Assembly (NCBI GenBank): GCA_016186095.1 | Contig: JACPMG010000020.1 | Span: 1-32,087 of the forward strand | Direction of reading: 5' to 3' | DNA: 32,087 nucleotides | DNA from: Candidatus Sungiibacteriota bacterium | Lineage (GTDB): Bacteria > Patescibacteriota > Minisyncoccia > Sungbacterales > HO2-52-23 | Part shown: positions 6,770-30,986 of the stretch, in pieces | Layout: every line of letters begins with the position of its first letter | How positions within the stretch are numbered: position 1 is the first letter of the stretch | Position numbers and translations under genes: made by a program | The notes under the pieces: model-generated | Database searches by the model: none | What the model was told of the DNA's origin: nothing | Seen by the model: only the letters and a program-made list of their open reading frames with translations

Positions 6770-6918
6770 CGTGGTCGCGGCTATTTCGATTTCAGACAAT
6801 GGAGGACGCGCTCAGCTAGGTCTTGCCGAAGGCAAGTGAGCGCGTCCGACTATTAGCGAGTTCCGCCGCAGGAGCGGAACGAGTCGTGTCTGAAATGGAA
6901 ATAGCCGAGGGCACCACG
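6770..6918 (-). other. Large folded element downstream of rplL (multi-arm hairpin)
   Basis: A 149-bp closed structure. The outer stem is 6778-6798 against 6887-6907 (CGGCTATTTC/GAAATAGCCG and ATTTCAGACA/TGTCTGAAAT, one mismatch), extended by CGTGGT/ACCACG. Inside are two arms. Arm one is GGACGCGCTCA (6804-6814) with TGAGCGCGTCC (6837-6847), capped by CTTGCC-GAA-GGCAAG. Arm two is GTTCCGC (6860-6866) with GCGGAAC (6874-6880). It starts 2 bp past the rplL stop codon, so it would be in the rplL 3' region. It could be a structured RNA, a complex terminator or a MITE-like element; which one is unknown. Confidence 0.6.
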
Positions 6919-6919
6919 T

Positions 6920-7303
6920 CTATTTTATTGTTACTGTCGCTCCTGCCTCCTCCAACTTCTTCTTCATCTCCTCGGCATCTGCCTTAGATACGCCATCTTT
7001 CACGGTCTTAGGGGCGGCATCAGCCAAGTCCTTGGCCTCTTTTAGGCCAAGACCGGCAATCTCGCGTAGGGCCTTTATCACCTGTATTTTCTGGCCTCCT
7101 GCGCTGGTAAGCTCTACCGCAAAGCTTGTTTTTTCCTCTTTTTTCTCACCTTCTTCCCCTGCCTCGGCAGCTCCGGGCATCGCTCCCATCATCATTGGCA
7201 TGGATGCAGATACGCCAAATTTCTCCTCTAGAGCTTTCACCAATTCGGAAAGCTCAAGGACGGACATTTTTTCTATGGTCTCTATAAGTTTTTCTCTATC
7301 CAT
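6920..7303 (-). CDS. rplL: 50S ribosomal protein L7/L12
   Basis: 127 residues (typical about 121-128). The N-terminal dimerisation helices ([20 protein letters not shown]) lead to a flexible hinge rich in Ala, Gly, Met and Glu (about 35-58). The C-terminal domain [20 protein letters not shown]...[10 protein letters not shown]...[24 protein letters not shown] recruits translation factors. It sits 9 bp after rplJ in the standard L10-L12 order. No SD is present. Confidence 0.98.
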
Positions 7304-7312
7304 GTTTTTATT

Positions 7313-7828
7313 TTATCTCTTATCTTTTATTTTATTTAATACTACGACCAAGTTCCTTATATTCCCCTGCAGGACCGTTGCCAGCCCCCGCATAGGCGAT
7401 TGTAAAACTCCAAGCAATTGAGCTAGAAGGGCTTCACGTCCTGGCAGTTTGGCAAAGGCCAAGATTTCTTTTCCGGAGAGTATCCGATCACCCAAAATCC
7501 CCCCCAAAATTTTAAACGTTTCGTTTTCTCTGCTGAATTTGGAAAGTGTCTTGGCCGGAGCCATCTCATCTACATAGGCGAAAGTAACCCCTATTTCTCC
7601 CTGCAGTTCCTTGGTTTTTAGCTTAATTCCGACCTTTCCCAGGGCTCTATCCAGAAGTGTTTTCTTGGCAACCTTATACTCCGCGTCTGATTTTTTCAAG
7701 AGGCGACGCAGCACTTGTGCCTTGGCCACGGAAACGCCGTGAAAATCGCTGAATATAGCGATTTTTTGTCGCTTAAAACGTTCGGCAAGACCGTCAACGA
7801 TATTCTTTTTTTGATCTTTGGTCAACAT
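7313..7828 (-). CDS. rplJ: 50S ribosomal protein L10
   Basis: 171 residues (usual about 165-175). It opens MLTKDQKKNIVDGLAERF and contains the L10 core: FSDFHGVSVAKAQVLRRLLK, YKVAKKTLLDRAL, and GVTFAYVDEMAPAKTL. L10 holds the L12 dimers on the ribosomal stalk. It is followed by rplL, and its own promoter is at 7980-8009. The leader contains several hairpins, including CGGCT/AGCCG (7833-7847) just 4 bp before the start codon, which could serve translational feedback (inferred). Confidence 0.97.
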   Translation of the reverse strand: MLTKDQKKNIVDGLAERFKRQKIAIFSDFHGVSVAKAQVLRRLLKKSDAEYKVAKKTLLDRALGKVGIKLKTKELQGEIGVTFAYVDEMAPAKTLSKFSRENETFKILGGILGDRILSGKEILAFAKLPGREALLAQLLGVLQSPMRGLATVLQGNIRNLVVVLNKIKDKR

Positions 7829-8018: not shown

Positions 8019-8034
8019 AACCCGGTCGAGGGTT
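8019..8034 (-). terminator. Weak terminator at the end of the glycerophosphodiesterase gene
   Basis: AACCC-TCGACC-GGGTT followed by TTTTTG on the minus strand. The stem is only 5 bp and overlaps the stop codon at 8033-8035. Confidence 0.4.
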
Positions 8035-8740
8035 ATAGCCTGTCCGGGTAGTTGGATATAATCCCGTCAACGTGCATGGCCTTGATTCGCGCAATTTCTT
8101 CTGGTTCGTCCACGGTCCAGACAAATACACGGCTGCCTGCTCCATGAGCCATGCCGACAAGAGATGGTGTTATGATTTCCCCGGACGGATTAATGGCATA
8201 TATGCGGCTTGGGTATGCCCGCGCAAGGGCGACGGCACGTATGGCGTTTTCCCATTTTTCTGCTAGCAGTGCTATCTTCAGGCGAGGCGTGCGTTTTTGC
8301 ACCCAAAGCAGTTCTAGCCAATTTGAAGAGTCTCCGGGTTCGTTTTCATTTTCGTCAAAAGCGGAGATTATACAGGATTCTTCCAGTTGTCGAAGTTCGA
8401 CCATGCGGGCAATCCTTTCCATAATGCCCTCTTCTTTCACCTCTATATGCAGTTCTACTTTTCCTCCAAATTCTTGAATCACTTCCCACGGAGTTGGTAT
8501 TCCCTGACCATCTTTCAGGCGGGGAAGGCGATGCGGGAAAAGAAAGCCGAGAAGTGGACCGTTTCCAAAGGTGACGCGATCGACCGTCGGGTCATGAAAT
8601 ACGACCAAATTATCTACGGCAGCGCGCCGTACATCAAATTCTATCCCGGTTGCCCCCAGCTCTATGGCTCGCCTAAAGGCCTTCAGGGAATTCTCGATAG
8701 CAGTTCCAGCAGCGCCTCGGTGACCGATTTTCTGGGACAA
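8033..8740 (-). CDS. ugpQ: Glycerophosphodiester phosphodiesterase
   Basis: 235 residues, the size of UgpQ-type GDPD enzymes, with a TTG start. It shows the catalytic motif HRGA (about 7-10), ENSLKAFRRAIELGATGIEFDV (quoted in part: GATGIEFDVR) with the metal-binding E.D pair, and VVFHDPTVDR with the general acid/base His. The C-terminal part contains VELHIEVKEE (metal Glu), VFVWTVDEPEEI and DGIISNYPDRL. It hydrolyses glycerophosphodiesters to glycerol-3-phosphate and an alcohol. An AAAAGGGGG stretch 6 bases before the TTG serves as SD. The symbol is assigned by family; operon partners for glycerophosphate uptake are absent. Confidence 0.9.
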   Translation of the reverse strand: MSQKIGHRGAAGTAIENSLKAFRRAIELGATGIEFDVRRAAVDNLVVFHDPTVDRVTFGNGPLLGFLFPHRLPRLKDGQGIPTPWEVIQEFGGKVELHIEVKEEGIMERIARMVELRQLEESCIISAFDENENEPGDSSNWLELLWVQKRTPRLKIALLAEKWENAIRAVALARAYPSRIYAINPSGEIITPSLVGMAHGAGSRVFVWTVDEPEEIARIKAMHVDGIISNYPDRL

Positions 8741-8812: not shown

Positions 8813-10483
8813 TCATCTTAAGAACTTAATTTTTGCTTCATTATGTTCTTCCAGAGTTTTTGAAAAAATAGTTTTGCCGTCGGGAGTGGAGAGATAATAG
8901 AGATACGGGGATTCTTTGGGATAAATCGCGGCGCGGATTGCGGAAAGTCCGGGATTCCCGATTGGTCCTTCGGGAAGTCCCCGATATTTGTAAGTATTGT
9001 ACGGCGAATCAATTTTCGTATCTTCCATCGAGATTTTATTATTTCCCTGATTCTTAATTCCTAATTCTTGCTTCTTGATGTAATCAATGGTCGCGTCAAC
9101 TTGAAGACCCATCCCAAGATCCAGCCGTTTCCATAAAATTCCGGAGACCAATGCGCGGTCTTCATCCGACACCACCTCCTTTTCAATCATAGAGGCCATT
9201 CTGACCACATCAAATACCGTAAGATTACGCCGGACTATTTCTTCCCGCAATTCAGGCGTCAGCTTCTTCCCAAAATTTTCAAGCATCTTCATGATAATGT
9301 CTTCTGTAGTCGCGTCTACAAAAATACGATAGGTATCGGGGAAAAGGTATCCTTCAAGCCCCTCATTCTTCGGCTTGCCGGACAAAAACTCGAATCTAGT
9401 CAACACCGAGTGTTGACTAGATTGGCTGGTATAGGCCCTAAATTCGTTAGGGGAGACAATTCCTTCGCGCCCAAGGTACTCGGCTATTTCTTGTGAGTTC
9501 CATCCCTCCGGAATGGTGATTACGCGTTCGTTTGTTCCGCCGAAGACAAGGTCGCGTACGATTTCCGGTATGGAAGCCTGCCCGAAGACATAATTCCCCG
9601 GTCTTAGATTAGCCGTTTGATTTTTAAGAGATATGTAGAGCACGAAAGTCCATTTGGAGCGGATGACGCCTTCTCGTTTTAAAATATGGGCGATTTTAGC
9701 CGCTCCCAGTCCCTCGGTGATTTCCACCGATCTTGAGCTTTTGTAGGAGGTATGGGGGCGGTAGAGCTCATTGGCGGCCAAGCTGGCCGCAAAGACAAAA
9801 GACAAAAGACAAAAGACAAAAAAATTATATCCAAACCTTTTATCTTTTATCTTTTCACTTTTATCTTGGAGTAATGCTATCACCTCCTCATCGCTTGTCT
9901 GTCCGAATTCCTCATAAAACGCGCCTACCGCTCCGTACCACTCCGGTTCCTCAAGTGCAATTACCTCGTCCGCCTCTTTTCGTAATTGGGCAAGCGAATC
10001 CGCGGCCCCATGAGGCACGGCCACTATTATTTTTTGGGGATTTTTTACGCGAACCGATTTGATAGCCGCTCGCATGGTAAAACCCGTGGCTATGCCATCG
10101 TCAACCAAAATCACAATTCTGCCGGTCACATCCGGATAGGGTTTATCGCCTCTGTATAATTTGAGCCGGCGCTCGGCCTCTTTTTTTTCTTTCTCAATTT
10201 CTCGCACGAGCCATTCTTGATCTATGTGGCGTGTCTCGTCCTCGTTAAAAACTCCCTCGCCGGTTTCGGTAATAGCGCCAACCGCGTACTCTGGGTTTCC
10301 CGGCGCTCCTATTTTTCTTGGCACCACGATGTCGAGCGGGAGCCCGAGTTCTTTCGAGACCTCATATCCAACCACAACTCCGCCTCGCGGAAGAGCCAGT
10401 ATAATCGTATCAGCAGCGGTTTTATATTTGGCGAGCGCTTGGGCCAATTTTTCTCCGGCCTCGCGGCGGTTTTTGAATATCAT
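8813..10483 (-). CDS. Phosphoribosyltransferase-MltG (endolytic transglycosylase) fusion
   Basis: 556 residues from the ATG at 10483; an upstream start would overlap lon. Residues 1-205 are a type I phosphoribosyltransferase with the PRPP loop VILVDDGIATGFT (124-136). Residues 218-237 form a transmembrane helix. Residues 238-556 are MltG/YceG, which cuts nascent peptidoglycan strands: EGYLFPDTY, catalytic Glu in ASMIEKEV (E434), GMGLQVDATIDY, SPYNTYKYRGLPEGPIGNPG and FSKTLEEHN. The two enzymes are normally unrelated. The join (207-230) is encoded by two heptamer arrays (9794-9865), so the fusion may be recent or switchable. The MltG part also contains a palindromic element (354-364) and another heptamer array (469-480). 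A TATAAT 6 bp before the ATG suggests a leaderless mRNA. Confidence 0.85.
   Translation of the reverse strand: MIFKNRREAGEKLAQALAKYKTAADTIILALPRGGVVVGYEVSKELGLPLDIVVPRKIGAPGNPEYAVGAITETGEGVFNEDETRHIDQEWLVREIEKEKKEAERRLKLYRGDKPYPDVTGRIVILVDDGIATGFTMRAAIKSVRVKNPQKIIVAVPHGAADSLAQLRKEADEVIALEEPEWYGAVGAFYEEFGQTSDEEVIALLQDKSEKIKDKRFGYNFFVFCLLSFVFAASLAANELYRPHTSYKSSRSVEITEGLGAAKIAHILKREGVIRSKWTFVLYISLKNQTANLRPGNYVFGQASIPEIVRDLVFGGTNERVITIPEGWNSQEIAEYLGREGIVSPNEFRAYTSQSSQHSVLTRFEFLSGKPKNEGLEGYLFPDTYRIFVDATTEDIIMKMLENFGKKLTPELREEIVRRNLTVFDVVRMASMIEKEVVSDEDRALVSGILWKRLDLGMGLQVDATIDYIKKQELGIKNQGNNKISMEDTKIDSPYNTYKYRGLPEGPIGNPGLSAIRAAIYPKESPYLYYLSTPDGKTIFSKTLEEHNEAKIKFLR
9045..9079. repeat. Heptamer array TCTTAAT-type inside mltG
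   Basis: Five units of 7 bp: CCCTGAT, TCTTAAT, TCCTAAT, TCTTGCT, TCTTGAT. It lies in the coding sequence between the DATIDY and SPYNTY motifs of MltG, a loop that tolerates length change. Confidence 0.6.
9393..9423. repeat. GTCAACAC palindrome, copy 1, inside mltG
   Basis: Perfect 14-bp arms, AATCTAGTCAACAC (9393-9406) and GTGTTGACTAGATT (9410-9423), around the loop CGA. It is translated as SSQHSVLTRF within the MltG domain. Other copies are at 20553-20585 and 27223-27249. Confidence 0.85.
9794..9865. repeat. Two heptamer arrays at the domain junction of the fusion gene
   Basis: GACAAAA repeated four times (9794-9821), then a 16-bp gap, then TTTTATC four times with one variant TTTTCAC (9838-9865). 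One unit gained or lost shifts the reading frame by one base. On the coding strand the arrays encode the charged linker (DKSEKIKDKR) and much of the membrane helix (FFVFCLLSFVF). Confidence 0.85.
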
Positions 10484-10504: not shown

Positions 10505-10523
10505 GGAGCTCTTTACGAGCTCC
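10505..10523 (-). terminator. lon terminator overlapping the stop codon
   Basis: GGAGCTC (10505-10511) and GAGCTCC (10517-10523) enclose a 5-base loop. The lon stop codon (10513-10515) lies in the loop. On the minus strand the stem is followed by CCTTTAATTT, a poor U tract. Confidence 0.55.
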
Positions 10524-12966
10524 ACTCAACTTTTCCTTCAATAAACCGATTGATAATTTCATTGTTCGGGAAGAATTCAAGTAATGCTTGCCAGACAGAA
10601 TGGCAAGGAATGAATGTGATTCCTGGTTTTATTTCCGCAGGAACATCTTCAAGGTCGCGTTCGTTGTCTTTAGGTATAACAAATCGCTTTATTCCTGCGC
10701 GGTGAGCCGCAAGCGCTTTTTCTTTAAGTCCACCTATGGGTTCAAGAATTCCTAACTTCAGATCAATTTCGCCCGTAGCACCCACGTGCGGTTGTATGGA
10801 TGTTTGAGTCAGAAGGCTAAAGGCAGAGACAATGGCCGGGATTCCTGCCGAAGGACCGTCTTTGGGCGTAGCGCCATCTCGGATATGAATGTGGATATAG
10901 AATTCACCTTTCGTTTTTCTCTCTCCCCTCGGTTCATGGAGTATGCCACCTTCAAGCATTAGACAGTCGAAGGCGACATCAAAGGATTCTTCAATAAGAT
11001 TGTTTATTCTTTGTCTTGATCCGCCTGAGCCGCGAACGCCCGTCACTTTTATTTTGCGCCGACTTCTGCCGCGTTGCATCATGACCTCAACGTAGAAGAA
11101 GTGGCCGCCTTCGTCCGATACCGCGAACATAGGAACGCAGCCAACCGGCATATTGTCGAAACGTTGTTCAGGATAGATGCGTGGTTTCCCGGCGAAGAGG
11201 CGAAGATTTTGGGCGGTGATCTGTATTTCGGCAACGTCCCTGAAGTCTCCTTCTGCTGTACGCAGGGCCACTTTTCGGAATATTCTTCTGATTTCTCGCT
11301 CCACTCCCCTGACCCCAGCTTCCCGCGTGTATTCCTCGATAAGTCTTTTTAGGGCGTCATCGGCTAGGGAAACATCCAGAGGATCAAGGCCCTCGCGTTG
11401 AAGTGGAAGCCCTTGTTTTTCACGCTGTTTGGCCACCAGATATTTTCGGGCAATGGCAAGTTTTTCAGGTTGGGTGTAGCCCGGAAGAAGGATAATCTCC
11501 ATGCGATCTCGCAGAGGGCGGGGTATTGTTTCTACGTTGTTGGCCGTGCAGATAAAAAATACGTGCGAAAGATCAAACGGTACGTTGACAAAAATATCAA
11601 AGAATTCGTTATTTTGTTCCGGGTCGAGCACCTCGAGCAAAGCTGAGGCAGGATCACCTCTCCAATGCTCGCCTATTTTGTCTATCTCGTCTAGAACGAA
11701 CACGGGGTTTCTGCTGCCGGATTTCACAATGTGCTGGATAATTTGTCCCGGGTGGGTCCTTACATAGACCAGTCCGTGGCCTCGTATTTCGCCTACGTCA
11801 TACACTCCGCCAAGGGAAAGATGCGTGGATTTTCTGCCAAGGGCACGAGCAATGGATTTGCCAAGCGACGTTTTGCCAATACCGGGCGGGCCGACAAAGC
11901 AAAGAATATCGCCGCTTCCGGACGGTACGTTTTTGCGAACGGCAAGAAACTCCAGAATCTGTTCTTTTACCCTTTCCAGTCCCCAGTGATCTTCGTCCAG
12001 AATTGCTCTTGCCTGAGCAACGTCAGTGTTATCTTCGGTCTCGGCAAGGGCGAAAAGTTGAAGAAGGCAATCCAGATGGTTTTTTGCTCCGGAAATCTCT
12101 CCCGGGTATCCCCCGCGTTTCATAAGTCCAAGCTCTTTTTCAATTTCTATACGCGCCTCTTCGGGCAGAGAACTTTTTATTTCGTTATAACGTTCTTCAT
12201 ATGAATTTCTGGGAGCGTTTGGCGATTGTTTCGAAGAAGCGGCGAATATCTCGGGATTTTTAGACATATACTCCACTAGCTCAGCCAATCCACCAAGGCG
12301 TTTGGCAACATTGCGTTCGCTAAGAAGGTACCGGAGCCCCAGGAGTAACTTCTCGGATTTCTTTACGAACTTGTTTAATACAAAGTAGGCGTAACGATCA
12401 AGAAATTCACCGATTGTCTCTGCGGTTGCCATGCGTATGTCAAACTTCGCCGCATTAAGTTCTCCCCGCTCCACTTGCTGGATAATCGGTTGCGCCAGAG
12501 GCGAGAGTCTAGCAAGCTCTTTCTGGAAGGTTCTGGAGAGGAACTCTTCGCGGTTTGGCTTCTCCTCCGTGATTTGCTCCCATTCGGCGAATAAGATGCT
12601 GTCTTCTGAGTGCGCATTGTAAAGCTTCACGCGAGATTTAAGTTCAACAATCAGGTTCAGTACGCTCTCTGCTGTCTCCATTTTAGTCACGAGACCCAGT
12701 ATTCCTGTCTCATACACCGTTGGTTTTTCAGTCCCATCCTCAGCCTCTTCGTATCTTGTAACATGCCCTACCAGTATATACGGGACTATTTTTATGCCTT
12801 CTTCCACTGCCCGCAGGTACGGAATCTGAAGATTAAGATGTACGTACGGAAAAGGCACCGGCTGGGCTCCCTCGTTGGATCCCGCGGCTTCTTGATCTTC
12901 AAGTATCGCCAAAAGCAATTTTTGGGGTGGCGGCCCTTTGTGGTTTCCTTTGTCGCCCTTGGACAT
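10513..12966 (-). CDS. lon: ATP-dependent protease Lon
   Basis: 817 residues (family about 780-820). The N-terminal substrate-binding domain runs to about residue 300. The AAA+ domain carries Walker A GPPGIGKTSLGKS and Walker B VFVLDEIDKIG. The C-terminal serine protease has PKDGPSAG (Ser706) and GGLKEKALAAHRAG (Lys750), the Ser-Lys dyad. It degrades misfolded and regulatory proteins in the cytosol. The start is supported by a GAGGAG SD 9 bases upstream. The N-terminus carries an extra charged stretch (MSKGDKGNHKGPPPQK) before the first conserved strand. Its own promoter is at 13004-13031. Confidence 0.97.
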   Translation of the reverse strand: MSKGDKGNHKGPPPQKLLLAILEDQEAAGSNEGAQPVPFPYVHLNLQIPYLRAVEEGIKIVPYILVGHVTRYEEAEDGTEKPTVYETGILGLVTKMETAESVLNLIVELKSRVKLYNAHSEDSILFAEWEQITEEKPNREEFLSRTFQKELARLSPLAQPIIQQVERGELNAAKFDIRMATAETIGEFLDRYAYFVLNKFVKKSEKLLLGLRYLLSERNVAKRLGGLAELVEYMSKNPEIFAASSKQSPNAPRNSYEERYNEIKSSLPEEARIEIEKELGLMKRGGYPGEISGAKNHLDCLLQLFALAETEDNTDVAQARAILDEDHWGLERVKEQILEFLAVRKNVPSGSGDILCFVGPPGIGKTSLGKSIARALGRKSTHLSLGGVYDVGEIRGHGLVYVRTHPGQIIQHIVKSGSRNPVFVLDEIDKIGEHWRGDPASALLEVLDPEQNNEFFDIFVNVPFDLSHVFFICTANNVETIPRPLRDRMEIILLPGYTQPEKLAIARKYLVAKQREKQGLPLQREGLDPLDVSLADDALKRLIEEYTREAGVRGVEREIRRIFRKVALRTAEGDFRDVAEIQITAQNLRLFAGKPRIYPEQRFDNMPVGCVPMFAVSDEGGHFFYVEVMMQRGRSRRKIKVTGVRGSGGSRQRINNLIEESFDVAFDCLMLEGGILHEPRGERKTKGEFYIHIHIRDGATPKDGPSAGIPAIVSAFSLLTQTSIQPHVGATGEIDLKLGILEPIGGLKEKALAAHRAGIKRFVIPKDNERDLEDVPAEIKPGITFIPCHSVWQALLEFFPNNEIINRFIEGKVEWSS

Positions 12967-13304: not shown

Positions 13305-16300
13305 TTATAGGGGATCGGGCAGGAACTTTTCAAAATCTAGGGATTCGTTCCCATCGATGAATCGTTTCAGGTGGTCGTAGAGAAGTGGTCGGAAAAGAAT
13401 CGGTCCTGCGGCAGGACCTTCCGCCGGAAGGCCTACTAACGCAATGCCTGTGCTATTTGGCGGGAAGCCGAGTTCGCCGAAAGAGTCCGTGTGTGTGCTT
13501 GCGGGACCCATGAGATAGATCGCGTGATCCGTCACGCTGGCCGTATAGAAATGTTTATCGCCGTAAACTTTCAATGCTACCTTTTTCTGGAAGATGCGCG
13601 GGTAGTTTCCGCGCCGGAGATCGGTACGGATTGCCATTAGCAACGGATCGCCCCAGTTAACGTTCATGGCCGGAGGAGTATTGCGGAAGTCAAGCCCCCA
13701 TTCATATCCGCCGGGCGCCTGTATCGTGCCGAATGATATGAAATCATTTCCGTAGATAGGCCCTTTTACAAGCCGTTCAAGGAGCTCGTCTTTATCGTTC
13801 CAGAAAGGAACTGCCCTTAAAAGGTCGCGGAGGAAGATGGAAAGGATTCTGCCTTCAGCAAGATGTCGAAGGACGGTTTTCAGAGAATGATTGCCGGTAC
13901 CAAGATTAATCATACCAGGGTCGCGCCTATCGTAAGGGATGGCGACGCGATCGCGGGGAGTAAGTTCGCTGATCCCACGCAGTACTAGTCCCGACTGAAG
14001 AGTCCGGCGAAGAATGGCGTCAAAGATGTCAACGTTGGGCTTGAGATGACCATCGTGGAACTCTTCAAGCTGGTCGCCGAACCAATCAATACCACGTACG
14101 TTGAACTGCTGGAGCGCGAAGAGTACGCCTTGGGTATGCAGTTCGTCTTTCTTTTTGCTGTCGCGGGCCCGCTTAGACTTTTCGCGTATTTCGCCAAGGT
14201 GCTTCTCTATGAGCCAATAGGGCATCTGATTCGGGTGCGGTTGACGATAAGCGTTAAAGTGGTCGGCCTGATTAGGATCATCGCAGATTGCGTAGCCGTG
14301 AATCGGAGGTGGATTACTCGGTCCGTAACCTGCCGCACGGAGCATATGGAAAAATGCTTCTCCGGGACCCAAACGGACACCTCGATCTTTCCACAATGCT
14401 TCTCGGGCTTTACCACCGACATGTTTGTCTGTCTCAATTAGCCAGTACAAATACCTTGGTTTACTCTCAAGCTGCTTTTTCTTCCGGCGCTCATGTGCGG
14501 CCAATGCTTCAATGCGGATTGGACTTACGCTGATAACCCCGTTGATACAACTGACGAGCAGTACTCCGGGTTTGACCTGTTCGTTGCGGACGAGGCGGGC
14601 GAACTGTTCTTGGCTATCCACCACGGTTTTCAGTTTTTCTCGTACGAAGGCATCGTTTATGCAATCCGGCGCCACGCATACAAGGGCGGAGCCGCGCTGT
14701 CCTTCAGCATCAACTTCGCGCGCGGTTTCGGCGTAGCGAAGCGCATGCGGAGAACCAATTATAGTAAGGTCTGCCATCTCTTCTCGAATTACAGCCGGTC
14801 CGCAGCTATTGGTGAAGTCGGCAAGAAGAGTGTCCGTAACACCTAGGCGCCCCGGAATATGCAGCTTGACCATTTTGTCGCCTACTTTGTAGATGATATT
14901 GCCAAGACTGGTTACCTTGCATTTCGGGAGAATGCTTTCAAAGAGCATAGCCATGTGCCCGATGGCCCTTTTCCTGGAACGTTGCCAACGAGGATCGTTA
15001 ATGTTGGTGATTTTGGTGCGCTGGACGAGTTCTTTCAGCGCAGCGAGCTCCTGTTTGAGAACTTCGGCTCGGCGCGAAAGAGCTGCTGTATCGGTGGCGA
15101 TTTCGGCAAGTTCCGAGCTGGCTTCCTCGTCGCTGCCGCCAGCGGCCTGGAGACGCGCGTCAAGTATTTCACGCCGCTCGTCCAATTTACGGAGCTGTTT
15201 TACGGCTTCCGTATATGCGCTTTCTGCCGCAGCCGCTTCTGCTCTTGCCTCGGCCTGGTCCATCAACATAGAATGATGGTCAGTCCAGTAGGTAGCGGCG
15301 TCAACGATCTTAGAATCGTACGGACCGAAAGAAATGAAGATCGGACCCAAGTACTCCGGCACAGTACGAGTCGGGTTTTCTTCCTCGTCTTTATCGGGAC
15401 GCCAAGTAACCTTGTGATATCCTTTCATCACTGTTTTTAGGAGCTCTTCTCGCGTAACGTATATGATGCGTTCATTTTCTCCACCGTTCCTGCTGATCAT
15501 CTGTCTGACACGTTCTTGATACGCAGGCGCAAGAAGATCAAGATCTACGTCAATGCCGGACAGGAGCGCCCGCGTAACGCGCGACGGCCCCGCGGCTTTC
15601 AGGGTGTTGATAAAGGTCATGTTCATCATGAGGACAGCATCAACCTTGCGGTACTCCGCTTCGGCAAGAGCCCGCCGGACTGCGTTCGCTTTCATGATGG
15701 GGTCGTGGACGAGGCCGAGGTTGGCACCGTTAATGACAAGGATGCACCAGTTTTTTCCAGTAGTCGGTATGACGCATGGGTTGGCGAAAGACGTGTCAGG
15801 AAGCTCAAAGTTTTGCCAACGCAACAAGGCGTCTTCGCCCATGAAACGGTTAATGCCGGGTAGAGTTGGCGTAGGAAATAGATCTGGCCTTGTGATTTTG
15901 TTGGTAACGCCGCGCAACCACTCGGCCTTTTTCTCGACCATAGCAGGCGGGATGTACGGATGATAGCGCGTGAACCTTTCCAGCGGCATTTCGCGTCTGA
16001 TGATTTCAGTGAGCGTCGTGATCGTACCTTTGGGTCCTTCCGTCCAGACGACTCTGTTGAGAACAAAGAAAAACTTCTCTTTGGTCAATTCGTATTGCGA
16101 TCGCTCCATGCCTTCCCGGAACTCCTCTTTTAGTTTGGCATAGACCGCGTCAGGTCCGCCCTCTTCGGTCAGGACGCCACGCTGTATTAGCTCAACCATC
16201 CGCGCCTCAATTGCTTTTTCGATCTGACCAGAGGTTTTATACCCATGCGCAATCTGCACCCGGTTTCGCATCTCCCCAAAATATCTGGCGGCCTTGCTTA

Positions 16301-17123
16301 GACCCTGTTCGCTTATGGGCTCGCCAATGATTCGCGACCACTTATCGCAGTAGTCGGCATTGGTATGTCCCGGCAGGCGAAAATCGGAGCGAAAGTCAAC
16401 AAGAAATTCTTGTCTTTGTTCGGTCGTGAGCCGAGGCCACCAATTGACATTCGCTCCTTGCGGCGTACTGAGTTCGAGCGCAGCCGCTTTGGCGGCAGCA
16501 TATGTCTCTTCAGACATCCCCCAGCCAAGCGGGGCGGTCACCCCCTGTATTTCCAGAGCGGCAAGGCGGGCGTCGTCGAGATGCTCGAGGTGCTTATGCA
16601 ATGAATTCATCGTTACGCTTCCTTCAAACCCGGCATCTTTCAGCTTTTCGGCGGTTTCTTGCCAGAGGCGACGTAGTTCTCTCCTACCCCCAAGAGTATT
16701 GCGGGTGAACTGTGTAGACTGTCTTGCGGCTTCGGCAAGAATCCGGTCGTGCTCGTCAGTCCAGACAAGACTTTCAGGCCTAGTGCGACGGATTCTGTTT
16801 GCACTCATCATTTTCTCAATCCTCGCCTTAGAACAAGAACAGCGAGCCTCAAGATCAGGCCACGAATCGTCTTTATGTTCCCGAAGGTCCGCAATTCTTT
16901 CTGGAGTCCACTTTTTGGGGAGTTTGGTCTCATTGGGCGCCGAGTCCCTGTCGCGCCTGATGTCGTAGCGGCCCATCACTTCTCTCAGGGTTTTAACCGT
17001 ACGATGGCCGAACATCCTGCTCAACCTGCTCCACGGGTCGTTTCTATGTTCCTCAAGTTTCTTCAATCTCGCGCGGCCATTCTCCAACCAGTAAGTGTTG
17101 TCTGGGCTCACTCCGCTACTCAT
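13305..17123 (-). CDS. Giant protein: Myb/SANT-like repeats plus two tandem metallophosphoesterase-like halves
   Basis: 1272 residues. Residues 11-58 and 71-115 are two copies of a Trp-containing helix-turn-helix-like unit (WxxE..RL..L..HR.DPWSRL / WTPERIADLREHKDDSWPDL), each ending IRRxR. A third, weaker copy starts at WTDEHDRIL (121). Two segments then follow the calcineurin-like phosphoesterase motif order. First half: LVINGANLG (463-471; DxH lost), DAVLMMNMTFIN (495-506; GD lost), FISFGPYDSKI (596-606; GNHD altered) and LTIIGSPHA (787-795; GHxH altered). Second half: IETDKHVGG (896-904; DxH kept), YAICDDPNQADH (944-955), LGTGNHSLKT (1074-1083; GNH kept) and KVYGDKHFY (1185-1193; GxxH). 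A coiled coil (620-705) lies inside the first half. An AGGGAG SD precedes the ATG. The family assignment is by motif pattern only. Confidence 0.6.
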   Translation of the reverse strand: MSSGVSPDNTYWLENGRARLKKLEEHRNDPWSRLSRMFGHRTVKTLREVMGRYDIRRDRDSAPNETKLPKKWTPERIADLREHKDDSWPDLEARCSCSKARIEKMMSANRIRRTRPESLVWTDEHDRILAEAARQSTQFTRNTLGGRRELRRLWQETAEKLKDAGFEGSVTMNSLHKHLEHLDDARLAALEIQGVTAPLGWGMSEETYAAAKAAALELSTPQGANVNWWPRLTTEQRQEFLVDFRSDFRLPGHTNADYCDKWSRIIGEPISEQGLSKAARYFGEMRNRVQIAHGYKTSGQIEKAIEARMVELIQRGVLTEEGGPDAVYAKLKEEFREGMERSQYELTKEKFFFVLNRVVWTEGPKGTITTLTEIIRREMPLERFTRYHPYIPPAMVEKKAEWLRGVTNKITRPDLFPTPTLPGINRFMGEDALLRWQNFELPDTSFANPCVIPTTGKNWCILVINGANLGLVHDPIMKANAVRRALAEAEYRKVDAVLMMNMTFINTLKAAGPSRVTRALLSGIDVDLDLLAPAYQERVRQMISRNGGENERIIYVTREELLKTVMKGYHKVTWRPDKDEEENPTRTVPEYLGPIFISFGPYDSKIVDAATYWTDHHSMLMDQAEARAEAAAAESAYTEAVKQLRKLDERREILDARLQAAGGSDEEASSELAEIATDTAALSRRAEVLKQELAALKELVQRTKITNINDPRWQRSRKRAIGHMAMLFESILPKCKVTSLGNIIYKVGDKMVKLHIPGRLGVTDTLLADFTNSCGPAVIREEMADLTIIGSPHALRYAETAREVDAEGQRGSALVCVAPDCINDAFVREKLKTVVDSQEQFARLVRNEQVKPGVLLVSCINGVISVSPIRIEALAAHERRKKKQLESKPRYLYWLIETDKHVGGKAREALWKDRGVRLGPGEAFFHMLRAAGYGPSNPPPIHGYAICDDPNQADHFNAYRQPHPNQMPYWLIEKHLGEIREKSKRARDSKKKDELHTQGVLFALQQFNVRGIDWFGDQLEEFHDGHLKPNVDIFDAILRRTLQSGLVLRGISELTPRDRVAIPYDRRDPGMINLGTGNHSLKTVLRHLAEGRILSIFLRDLLRAVPFWNDKDELLERLVKGPIYGNDFISFGTIQAPGGYEWGLDFRNTPPAMNVNWGDPLLMAIRTDLRRGNYPRIFQKKVALKVYGDKHFYTASVTDHAIYLMGPASTHTDSFGELGFPPNSTGIALVGLPAEGPAAGPILFRPLLYDHLKRFIDGNESLDFEKFLPDPL

Positions 17124-20552: not shown

Positions 20553-20585
20553 ATTTCTAGTCAACACTCGGTGTTGACTAGAAAT
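20553..20585. repeat. GTCAACAC palindrome, copy 2
   Basis: 15-bp perfect arms, ATTTCTAGTCAACAC (20553-20567) and GTGTTGACTAGAAAT (20571-20585), loop TCG. It lies between the convergent ends of the orphan gene and the guaB-family gene, 11 bp past the latter's stop codon. Confidence 0.85.
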
Positions 20586-23840: not shown

Positions 23841-24244
23841 TTATGGCAACCCCTGTGGTATTGTGCCGCCACCCGCCCCGAAGTATTGAACCAATATCGC
23901 TACAACTCCCCACGCCGCAGCCATGACCGCGAGTCCCACAATTCCCCAGGTCATGATGGCCTTGGCTTTGTTGCGCGCCTGCTCATCCCCTGACTTGGCA
24001 ATGAATTGAATTACTCCCCAGAGAAAAATGACCGTTGCTAGGACAAAACCCCTGACTTGGCAATGAATTGAATTACTCCCCAGAGAAAAATGACCGTTGC
24101 TAGGACAAAAAGCACGCCGATTACGTTGCGGAGTGTCTGGCCAACATTGTTTAGAATAGTGTTTAGCTGTTGTGCGCCCGCCACAAGAGGAAGGAGCGCG
24201 GATCCAAGAATAAATGCTGGATAAAGTTTTAGAAGTTTTGACAT
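23841..24244 (-). pseudogene. Pilin gene broken by a 62-bp tandem duplication (copy C)
   Basis: From ATG at 24244: signal peptide (MSKLLKLYPAFILGSALLPL, then VAGAQQ), then VLFVLATVIFLWGVIQFIAKSG. A 62-bp segment is then repeated (23987-24048 and 24049-24110), and because 62 is not a multiple of three the frame is lost (VLS, stop at 24038). With one copy removed the frame runs on as GDEQARNKAKAIMTWG, AAAWGVVAILVQYFGAGGG and ends TIPQGLP at 23841, giving a normal VirB2/T4SS-type pilin. So the gene is either truncated in the genome or a duplicate introduced in assembly. Confidence 0.75.
23908..24110. repeat. 142-bp identical block, copy 2, with 62-bp tandem duplication
   Basis: 23908-24049 repeats 23586-23727. 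Its last part (23987-24048, from CCCCTGACTTGG to GGACAAAA) is immediately repeated as 24049-24110. The 62-bp unit is thus present three times in the locus. Confidence 0.9.
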
Positions 24245-26561: not shown

Positions 26562-26626
26562 CTACTTATTACGAATCGTACGAATTTACGAATATTCGTA
26601 CATTCGTAAGGATTCGTTATTCGTAG
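26562..26626. repeat. TACGAAT palindromic element, copy A
   Basis: About 65 bp of spaced TACGAAT units on one arm and ATTCGTA units on the other, able to form a long imperfect hairpin. It fills the gap between the methyltransferase stop (26627) and the solute-binding gene start. It is near-identical to copy C (30922-30986). Confidence 0.85.
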
Positions 26627-27222: not shown

Positions 27223-27249
27223 TTTAGTCAACACCGAGTGTTGACTAAA
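27223..27249. repeat. GTCAACAC palindrome, copy 3
   Basis: 12-bp perfect arms, TTTAGTCAACAC (27223-27234) and GTGTTGACTAAA (27238-27249), loop CGA. It abuts the gyrA stop codon at 27250. Confidence 0.8.
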
Positions 27250-29718: not shown

Positions 29719-29781
29719 CTACGAATTACGAAAGTTTACGAATGTACGAATTCGTATATTCGTATGATTCGCTATTCGTAG
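29719..29781. repeat. TACGAAT palindromic element, copy B
   Basis: CTACGAAT at one end and ATTCGTAG at the other, with diverged inner units. It fills the gap between the gyrA start and the stop codon at 29782 of the upstream gene. Confidence 0.8.
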
Positions 29782-30921: not shown

Positions 30922-30986
30922 CTACGAATTACGAATCGTACGAATTTACGAATATTCGTACATTCGTAAGGATTCGTTATTCGTAG
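30922..30986. repeat. TACGAAT palindromic element, copy C
   Basis: Begins CTACGAAT and ends ATTCGTAG; the inner sequence matches copy A almost throughout. It lies just upstream of the MBL hydrolase start, in the divergent region shared with rpsA. Confidence 0.85.

Follow-up and report, generated by a model that had tools for sequence, protein, structure and literature searches.

In-frame fusion of a phosphoribosyltransferase to the transglycosylase MltG, and the heptamer repeats at its joint, in a Candidatus Sungiibacteriota bacterium

Organization of the fused gene and its surroundings

The window, that is, the whole stretch of DNA analysed here, comprises 32,087 nucleotides of contig JACPMG010000020.1 from a Candidatus Sungiibacteriota bacterium (assembly GCA_016186095.1). 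Its reverse strand carries, at positions 8813–10483, a single open frame of 556 codons plus stop, which begins with ATG and in which a phosphoribosyltransferase (PRTase) is joined to MltG, as a preliminary description of this DNA had proposed. Both PF00156 (E 9.4e-18, 64.5 bits versus a cut-off of 26.3) and PF02618 (E 4.9e-76, 256 bits versus a cut-off of 32.4) were matched by this one protein in the Pfam search. An alternative GTG start at 10525 would give a product of 570 aa; the ATG agrees with the start of the corresponding gene in genome G009, described below. From its N-terminus, the frame encodes the PRTase domain (codons 1–206, 9866–10483), a repeat-rich joint of 31 codons delimited by joint analysis and an AlphaFold2 model, with linker and membrane helix (9773–9865), and the MltG (YceG) domain (8831–9727). 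According to Pfam, the upstream neighbour on the same strand is lon (10513–12966), and a GDPD-family gene (8033–8740) and rplJ (7313–7828) lie downstream, followed by rplL (6920–7303).

The PRTase domain, identified by PF00156, by its match to 1wd5 and by the AlphaFold2 model, carries the stretch VILVDDGIATGFT, which we take to be the PRPP-loop motif. Its nearest solved structure by sequence was 1wd5 (E 4.3e-48), with residues 1–205 aligned, and it would in this respect be like the TT1426-type phosphoribosyltransferases (PF00156), from which it differs in being fused to a membrane protein. As the entry 1wd5 is annotated as a hypothetical protein, the substrate of the PRTase is not transferable from that structure.

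The solved structures closest to the MltG half by sequence were 4iiw (E 6.9e-44), 2r1f and 8yq7, and the NCBIfam MltG model TIGR00247 gave 188 bits on the second half of the protein (cut-off 103.4). Judging from sequence, the window protein resembles the MltG/YceG endolytic transglycosylases (PF02618, TIGR00247; 4iiw, 2r1f) in having the full domain, aligned with 4iiw along its length, and a preceding helix. Unlike them, it has a 206-residue enzyme before that helix and three repeat-type stretches (the joint, 9398–9418 and 9046–9067). Its MASMIEKEV stretch aligns with SSIIEKEA of 4iiw, and the AS-x-IEKE stretch of MltG is presumably the site of the catalytic glutamate. The membrane helix YNFFVFCLLSFVFAASLAA (codons 219–237, 9773–9829, reverse strand) precedes the YceG domain, is the top hydropathy window of the whole fused protein and is also a helix in the AlphaFold2 model. 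This model (mean pLDDT 90.9), built on a 24-row alignment, showed two confident domains, a long helix before MltG and a loose stretch at the joint (pLDDT below 50 at residues 209–218). It is consistent with a good fold in each domain and a loosely structured joint; as its pTM is only 0.51, the mutual placing of the two domains is meaningless.

Other features were observed in the window. A pattern search identified the palindrome AGTCAACACNNNGTGTTGACT in frame inside mltG (9398–9418); it has five sites in the genome, three of them in the window (the other two at 20559–20579 and 27226–27246), and the reversed control pattern had none. A perfect 62-bp tandem duplication is located at 23987–24110, and an ORF of 1272 aa at 13305–17123 gave no Pfam match at 0.001.

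Repeats, reading frame and predicted hairpin at the joint

Two heptamer arrays of 4.4 copies each were identified at the joint on the reverse strand. The right arm (9791–9821) is a perfect array of TTTTGTC in the mRNA (AAAGACA on the forward strand) and encodes LLSFVF of the membrane helix. The left arm (9837–9867), AAAAGAT in the mRNA (CTTTTAT on the forward strand), is imperfect, with 83% matches and one degenerate unit. The joint had been described as encoded almost wholly by two four-copy arrays. Both arrays are there, but they make up about two thirds of it (60 of the 93 nt of 9773–9865), and one of them is not perfect. About half of the membrane helix (31 of the 57 nt of 9773–9829) is repeat-encoded, in agreement with the same description. 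The period-7 signal at the joint reached 21 of 21 matches at lag 7, a level found in none of 96 windows elsewhere in the gene.

Frame arithmetic confirmed that adding or removing units shifts the frame: one or two units more or fewer of either array disrupt the MltG frame, and the resulting products end after 214–272 residues, retaining the PRTase and losing MltG. A change of three TTTTGTC units in either direction keeps the frame; one to three additional AAAAGAT units introduce a stop every time. Beyond the PRTase, the sequence of the fused gene showed no in-frame start that combines a plausible ribosome site with an intact helix. Three candidates for a restart of mltG were discarded, since the in-frame GTG at codon 201 abuts a GAGGAG stretch with too short a spacing and the TTG codons 227 and 235 are both within the membrane helix.

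The two arrays give a long predicted hairpin in the mRNA (9792–9867, reverse strand). Folding of the region 9786–9870 yielded −30.9 kcal/mol on the mRNA strand (z −7.7; 0 of 200 dinucleotide shuffles were as low) and only −13.9 kcal/mol on the opposite strand. This strand bias, and the presence of a T TTT TTT run in frame at the joint, would fit a hairpin acting on the mRNA, through ribosome pausing, processing or slippage on the T run, and tuning the amount of MltG. However, the T run is inside the hairpin rather than upstream of it, and the array is absent in G009. In addition, 120-nt windows around the 25 period-7 arrays described below did not differ in folding energy from 300 random windows (p 0.26). 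Arrays in general thus fold no better than random sequence, and the hairpin is claimed for the joint alone, not as a property of arrays. A role of the hairpin in setting the level of MltG seems highly improbable.

Heptamer arrays across the genome

A 265-kb sample of the same genome was scanned for periods of 4 to 30. Period 7 was found in 18 of the 22 perfect arrays with at least 14 matches and in 25 of the 44 with at least 11, the unit sequence varying between arrays. Five Markov shuffles of the 265 kb gave no period-7 run with at least 11 matches versus the 25 observed, so these arrays are not due to chance. At this threshold, period-7 arrays were also detected in G009 (3 in 140 kb), G021 (4 in 60 kb), G173 (3 in 40 kb), G260 (2 in 60 kb), G248 (1 in 60 kb) and G006 (1 in 18 kb), and none was detected in 13 other genomes of the class (13–60 kb per genome) or in 50 kb of Escherichia coli. 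Heptamer arrays are a habit of certain genomes, the window genome foremost.

Arrays of the window genome, among which those of three to five units are common, were found between genes and in protein loops. A crude ORF call assigned about 91% of the sample to frames, yet it placed 15 of the 25 arrays entirely within them; the arrays avoid genes without shunning them. The ValS gene has three, in weakly conserved stretches; one of these, of unit AAATCCG, encodes the loop insert KSEIRNPKSEI, and a similar insert is present at the same site in G022, which belongs to another family, and missing from several other genomes. Within the MltG domain, a repeat scan and the alignment with G009 identified CCTAATT in 3.1 copies (9046–9067, reverse strand), in a 7-aa insert (21 nt, exactly three units) that G009 does not have. 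For 14 of the 25 arrays, an inverted partner with up to 3 mismatches in 14 was located no more than 90 nt away, versus 14 of 500 control placements.

Bacterial heptanucleotide repeats have been described before, such as TAACTGA in Beggiatoaceae and GGGAATC in Xanthomonas. Heptamers are reported as the commonest such repeat class in most bacterial genomes, and polymerase slippage is proposed (PMC4692102, PMC4679880). The published repeats are like ours in being short period-7 tandem arrays, often intergenic; in the window genome, by contrast, each array has its own unit sequence, and a close inverted partner is frequent.

Repeats of other kinds were observed as well. Inverted repeats of the TACGAAT type (26569–26593, 29720–29780 and 30923–30953) are in the gaps just 5' of solute-binding, gyrA and MBL-fold genes, and TACGAAT together with its complement occurs 112 times in the 265-kb sample. 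Locus L077 (G000:C13:20001–40000) contains near-identical hairpin-like blocks at 8511–8542, 8969–9000 and 10013–10044 that end in 4.6 copies of CGATACA and abut the start codons (ATG) of the genes for ribosomal proteins S8, L6 and S5; a shorter block of the same kind (6840–6861) is ahead of another start. Local copying of these blocks and an effect on translation start are possible.

The frequency of the arrays bears on a further proposal of the preliminary description, namely that heptamer slippage switches the cell between the fused PRTase::MltG and a free, shorter PRTase. A perfect in-frame tandem array, whose frame is broken by one or two units and kept by three TTTTGTC units, would be suited to this, and phase variation via simple repeats is an established bacterial device (PMC4692102). 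Nevertheless, every frame-breaking copy number removes MltG, no internal start was seen from which it could be restored, the G009 fusion is devoid of the array, and similar arrays occur all over the window genome, the housekeeping gene valS included, which deprives the one at the joint of its value as a sign of a switch. The joint array is most likely one more of the genome-wide heptamers. Phase switching is unsupported, and we regard it as very unlikely.

The same fusion in a second genus

The fused protein was used as query against an order sample of 23 genomes, the genus sample being the window genome alone, and matches were obtained in 21. The comparison with sister genomes that had been recommended revealed the fusion itself in G009, a single-contig genome of the same family and another genus. 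The same fused frame is at the same place in this genome, with 66% identity, and also comes straight after a lon-like ORF. An error of assembly or sequencing could have joined two genes in the window, whose genome is a draft of 680 kb in 32 contigs, short repeats being prone to error. However, the frame is unbroken across 556 codons and, because a second and independent genome carries the same fusion in one contig, such an artefact is very unlikely. The fusion is genuine and common to two genera.

Heptamers were not found at the joint of G009, where lag 7 gave 10 of 21 matches, a level reached by 28 of 91 other windows of the gene. Repeats are therefore not required for the fusion. The PRTases of the window and G009 were sisters in the PRTase tree (support 99/94). 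The MltG tree, from which L059 and L063 were left out as partial or odd hits (L059 being on reading a true PCMT::MltG fusion, of the class treated below), did not group the two fused genes, which might argue against a single origin, yet it did not reject a single clade (AU p 0.339). The simplest interpretation is a single fusion in the common ancestor of both genomes, followed by a gain of heptamers in the window lineage or by their loss in G009.

The gene slot upstream of mltG

The order lon–X–mltG is common to the window and some relatives. Neighbours in relatives were named (lon-like, deformylase-like and so on) from reading their translations, and lon of the window from Pfam. The gene just upstream of mltG in relatives is often pcm, encoding isoaspartate methyltransferase (PCMT). 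In L026 and L038 it is a separate gene flanked by a lon-like ORF and mltG; it is directly before mltG in L024, and PCMT is fused to MltG in six members of the order (L021, L023, L028, L029, L031 and L036). L025, L027, L033 and L035 have other ORFs at this position. True PCMT (E <1e-18) was present in 12 of the 23 order genomes and missing from the window genome, G009 and nine others; as these nine have no PRTase fusion, the absence of PCMT is no special mark of a swap.

At the level of the class, PCMT and MltG were in a single frame in at least 11 of the 285 genomes sampled, each confirmed by reading (G006, G010, G017, G021, G022, G023, G040, G100, G121, G174 and G195; G022 was counted from its locus, not from its class-listing row). 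A twelfth case, G005, came from the order search, outside that sample. Elsewhere pcm and mltG are side by side with a stop between them (e.g., G046, G120, G231 and G247). Open-frame length alone had suggested fusions in G247 and G254, but the former reads as two ORFs and the latter has a separate mltG frame of 366 aa, and both were excluded from the count. The window protein is like the PCMT::MltG fusions of the class in having a cytosolic-type enzyme, a short linker, a helix and MltG and, within the taxonomic order, in using the same slot before mltG; unlike them, its N-terminal enzyme is an unrelated one. No report of either fusion was found in open-licence papers.

Among ten pcm::mltG joints measured, a strong heptamer array was present in L023 only, and a degenerate one in L021. 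With the heptamer-free joint of G009, these data do not sustain the suggestion that repeats erased an old gene boundary, and heptamers were discarded as a general cause of fusion. They may have taken part in the first PRTase fusion and been lost later in G009.

PRTases of this kind are rare in the class: a threshold of E 1e-3 gave matches in 16 of 285 genomes, and 11 of these were below 1e-30. Two of these 11 are fused to MltG (the window genome and G009), and another, in G078, which belongs to a distant genus, is unfused and ends 2 nt before mltG. In G078 and its congener G280, the position between a deformylase-like ORF and mltG is taken by a PRTase and a PCMT, respectively, and the MltGs of the two are sisters (100/100). 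Since the G078 PRTase is outside the fused pair in the PRTase tree, with modest inner support, the slot has probably been taken by a PRTase twice. The notable part of these comparisons is that the upstream partner of MltG is exchangeable and has been fused to it repeatedly; open-licence papers yielded no description of such a slot.

The sister of the fused PRTases is in a Candidatus Uhrbacteria record (MGDU01000006.1, L154, 36–6595), where the PRTase gene and prs are between mreB-mreC and a PBP2-like gene, with an extra 191-aa ORF beside mreB-mreC. This arrangement provides a lead towards a link of the PRTase to wall function. Related PRTases adjoin upp in L067 and L068, which points to nucleotide salvage, and the remaining relatives adjoin unrelated ORFs. 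A scan of named organisms with the fused protein, which may omit records very near the window, gave at least seven loci; among the matches listed, only the PRTase part was matched, the closest being in Uhrbacteria and Nomurabacteria records.

The recurrence of fusions in many lineages, with two unrelated partners, could indicate selection for a tether that places the enzyme at the site of wall synthesis or lets PRPP, nucleotide or protein-damage state act on MltG, and would count against mere tolerance. The Uhrbacteria neighbourhood and the third PRTase immediately before mltG in G078 point the same way. Against this, the identity of the partner varies, and relatives show a scattered mixture of fused and unfused states, which would be expected were the partner of little importance. 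Other PRTases of the family adjoin upp or other genes. The recurrent fusions may be either useful or simply tolerated; we consider a selected tether unlikely.

Origin and meaning of the fusion

We favour, as the likely explanation, a constitutively produced two-domain protein that arose when the gene directly preceding mltG lost its stop codon and became continuous with it in frame, the heptamers being passengers and neither cause nor switch. The PRTase half would be in the cytosol, a single helix would cross the membrane and MltG would cut peptidoglycan outside. The N-terminus of E. coli MltG is a short cytosolic tail ahead of the helix, and an MltG with such a tail of its own could be expected to tolerate the addition. 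Arrays of the genome would occupy intergenic gaps and linkers that tolerate them, probably growing and shrinking by strand slippage, and those at the joint would simply make up part of the linker and helix. The joint hairpin, far stronger on the mRNA strand, speaks against arrays that are pure passengers, for which this need not be so.

In a draft genome of this group, an in-frame tandem repeat is poor evidence of phase variation, because period-7 arrays abound in the window genome and occur even within a housekeeping gene. MltG is regarded as setting the length of glycan strands and, to our knowledge, little is known about its control from the cytosol. We regard it as an unlikely idea that MltG in this class offers a plug-in site at its cytosolic end, into which unrelated enzymes (PCMT, PRTase) have been swapped at one chromosomal slot and repeatedly fused because anchoring to the wall machinery is useful. 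Were it true, nucleotide (PRPP) or protein-damage status, for example, would bear on the cutting of glycan chains. MltG fusions with two different enzymes, together with their unfused close relatives, constitute a natural experiment on the cytosolic control of MltG.
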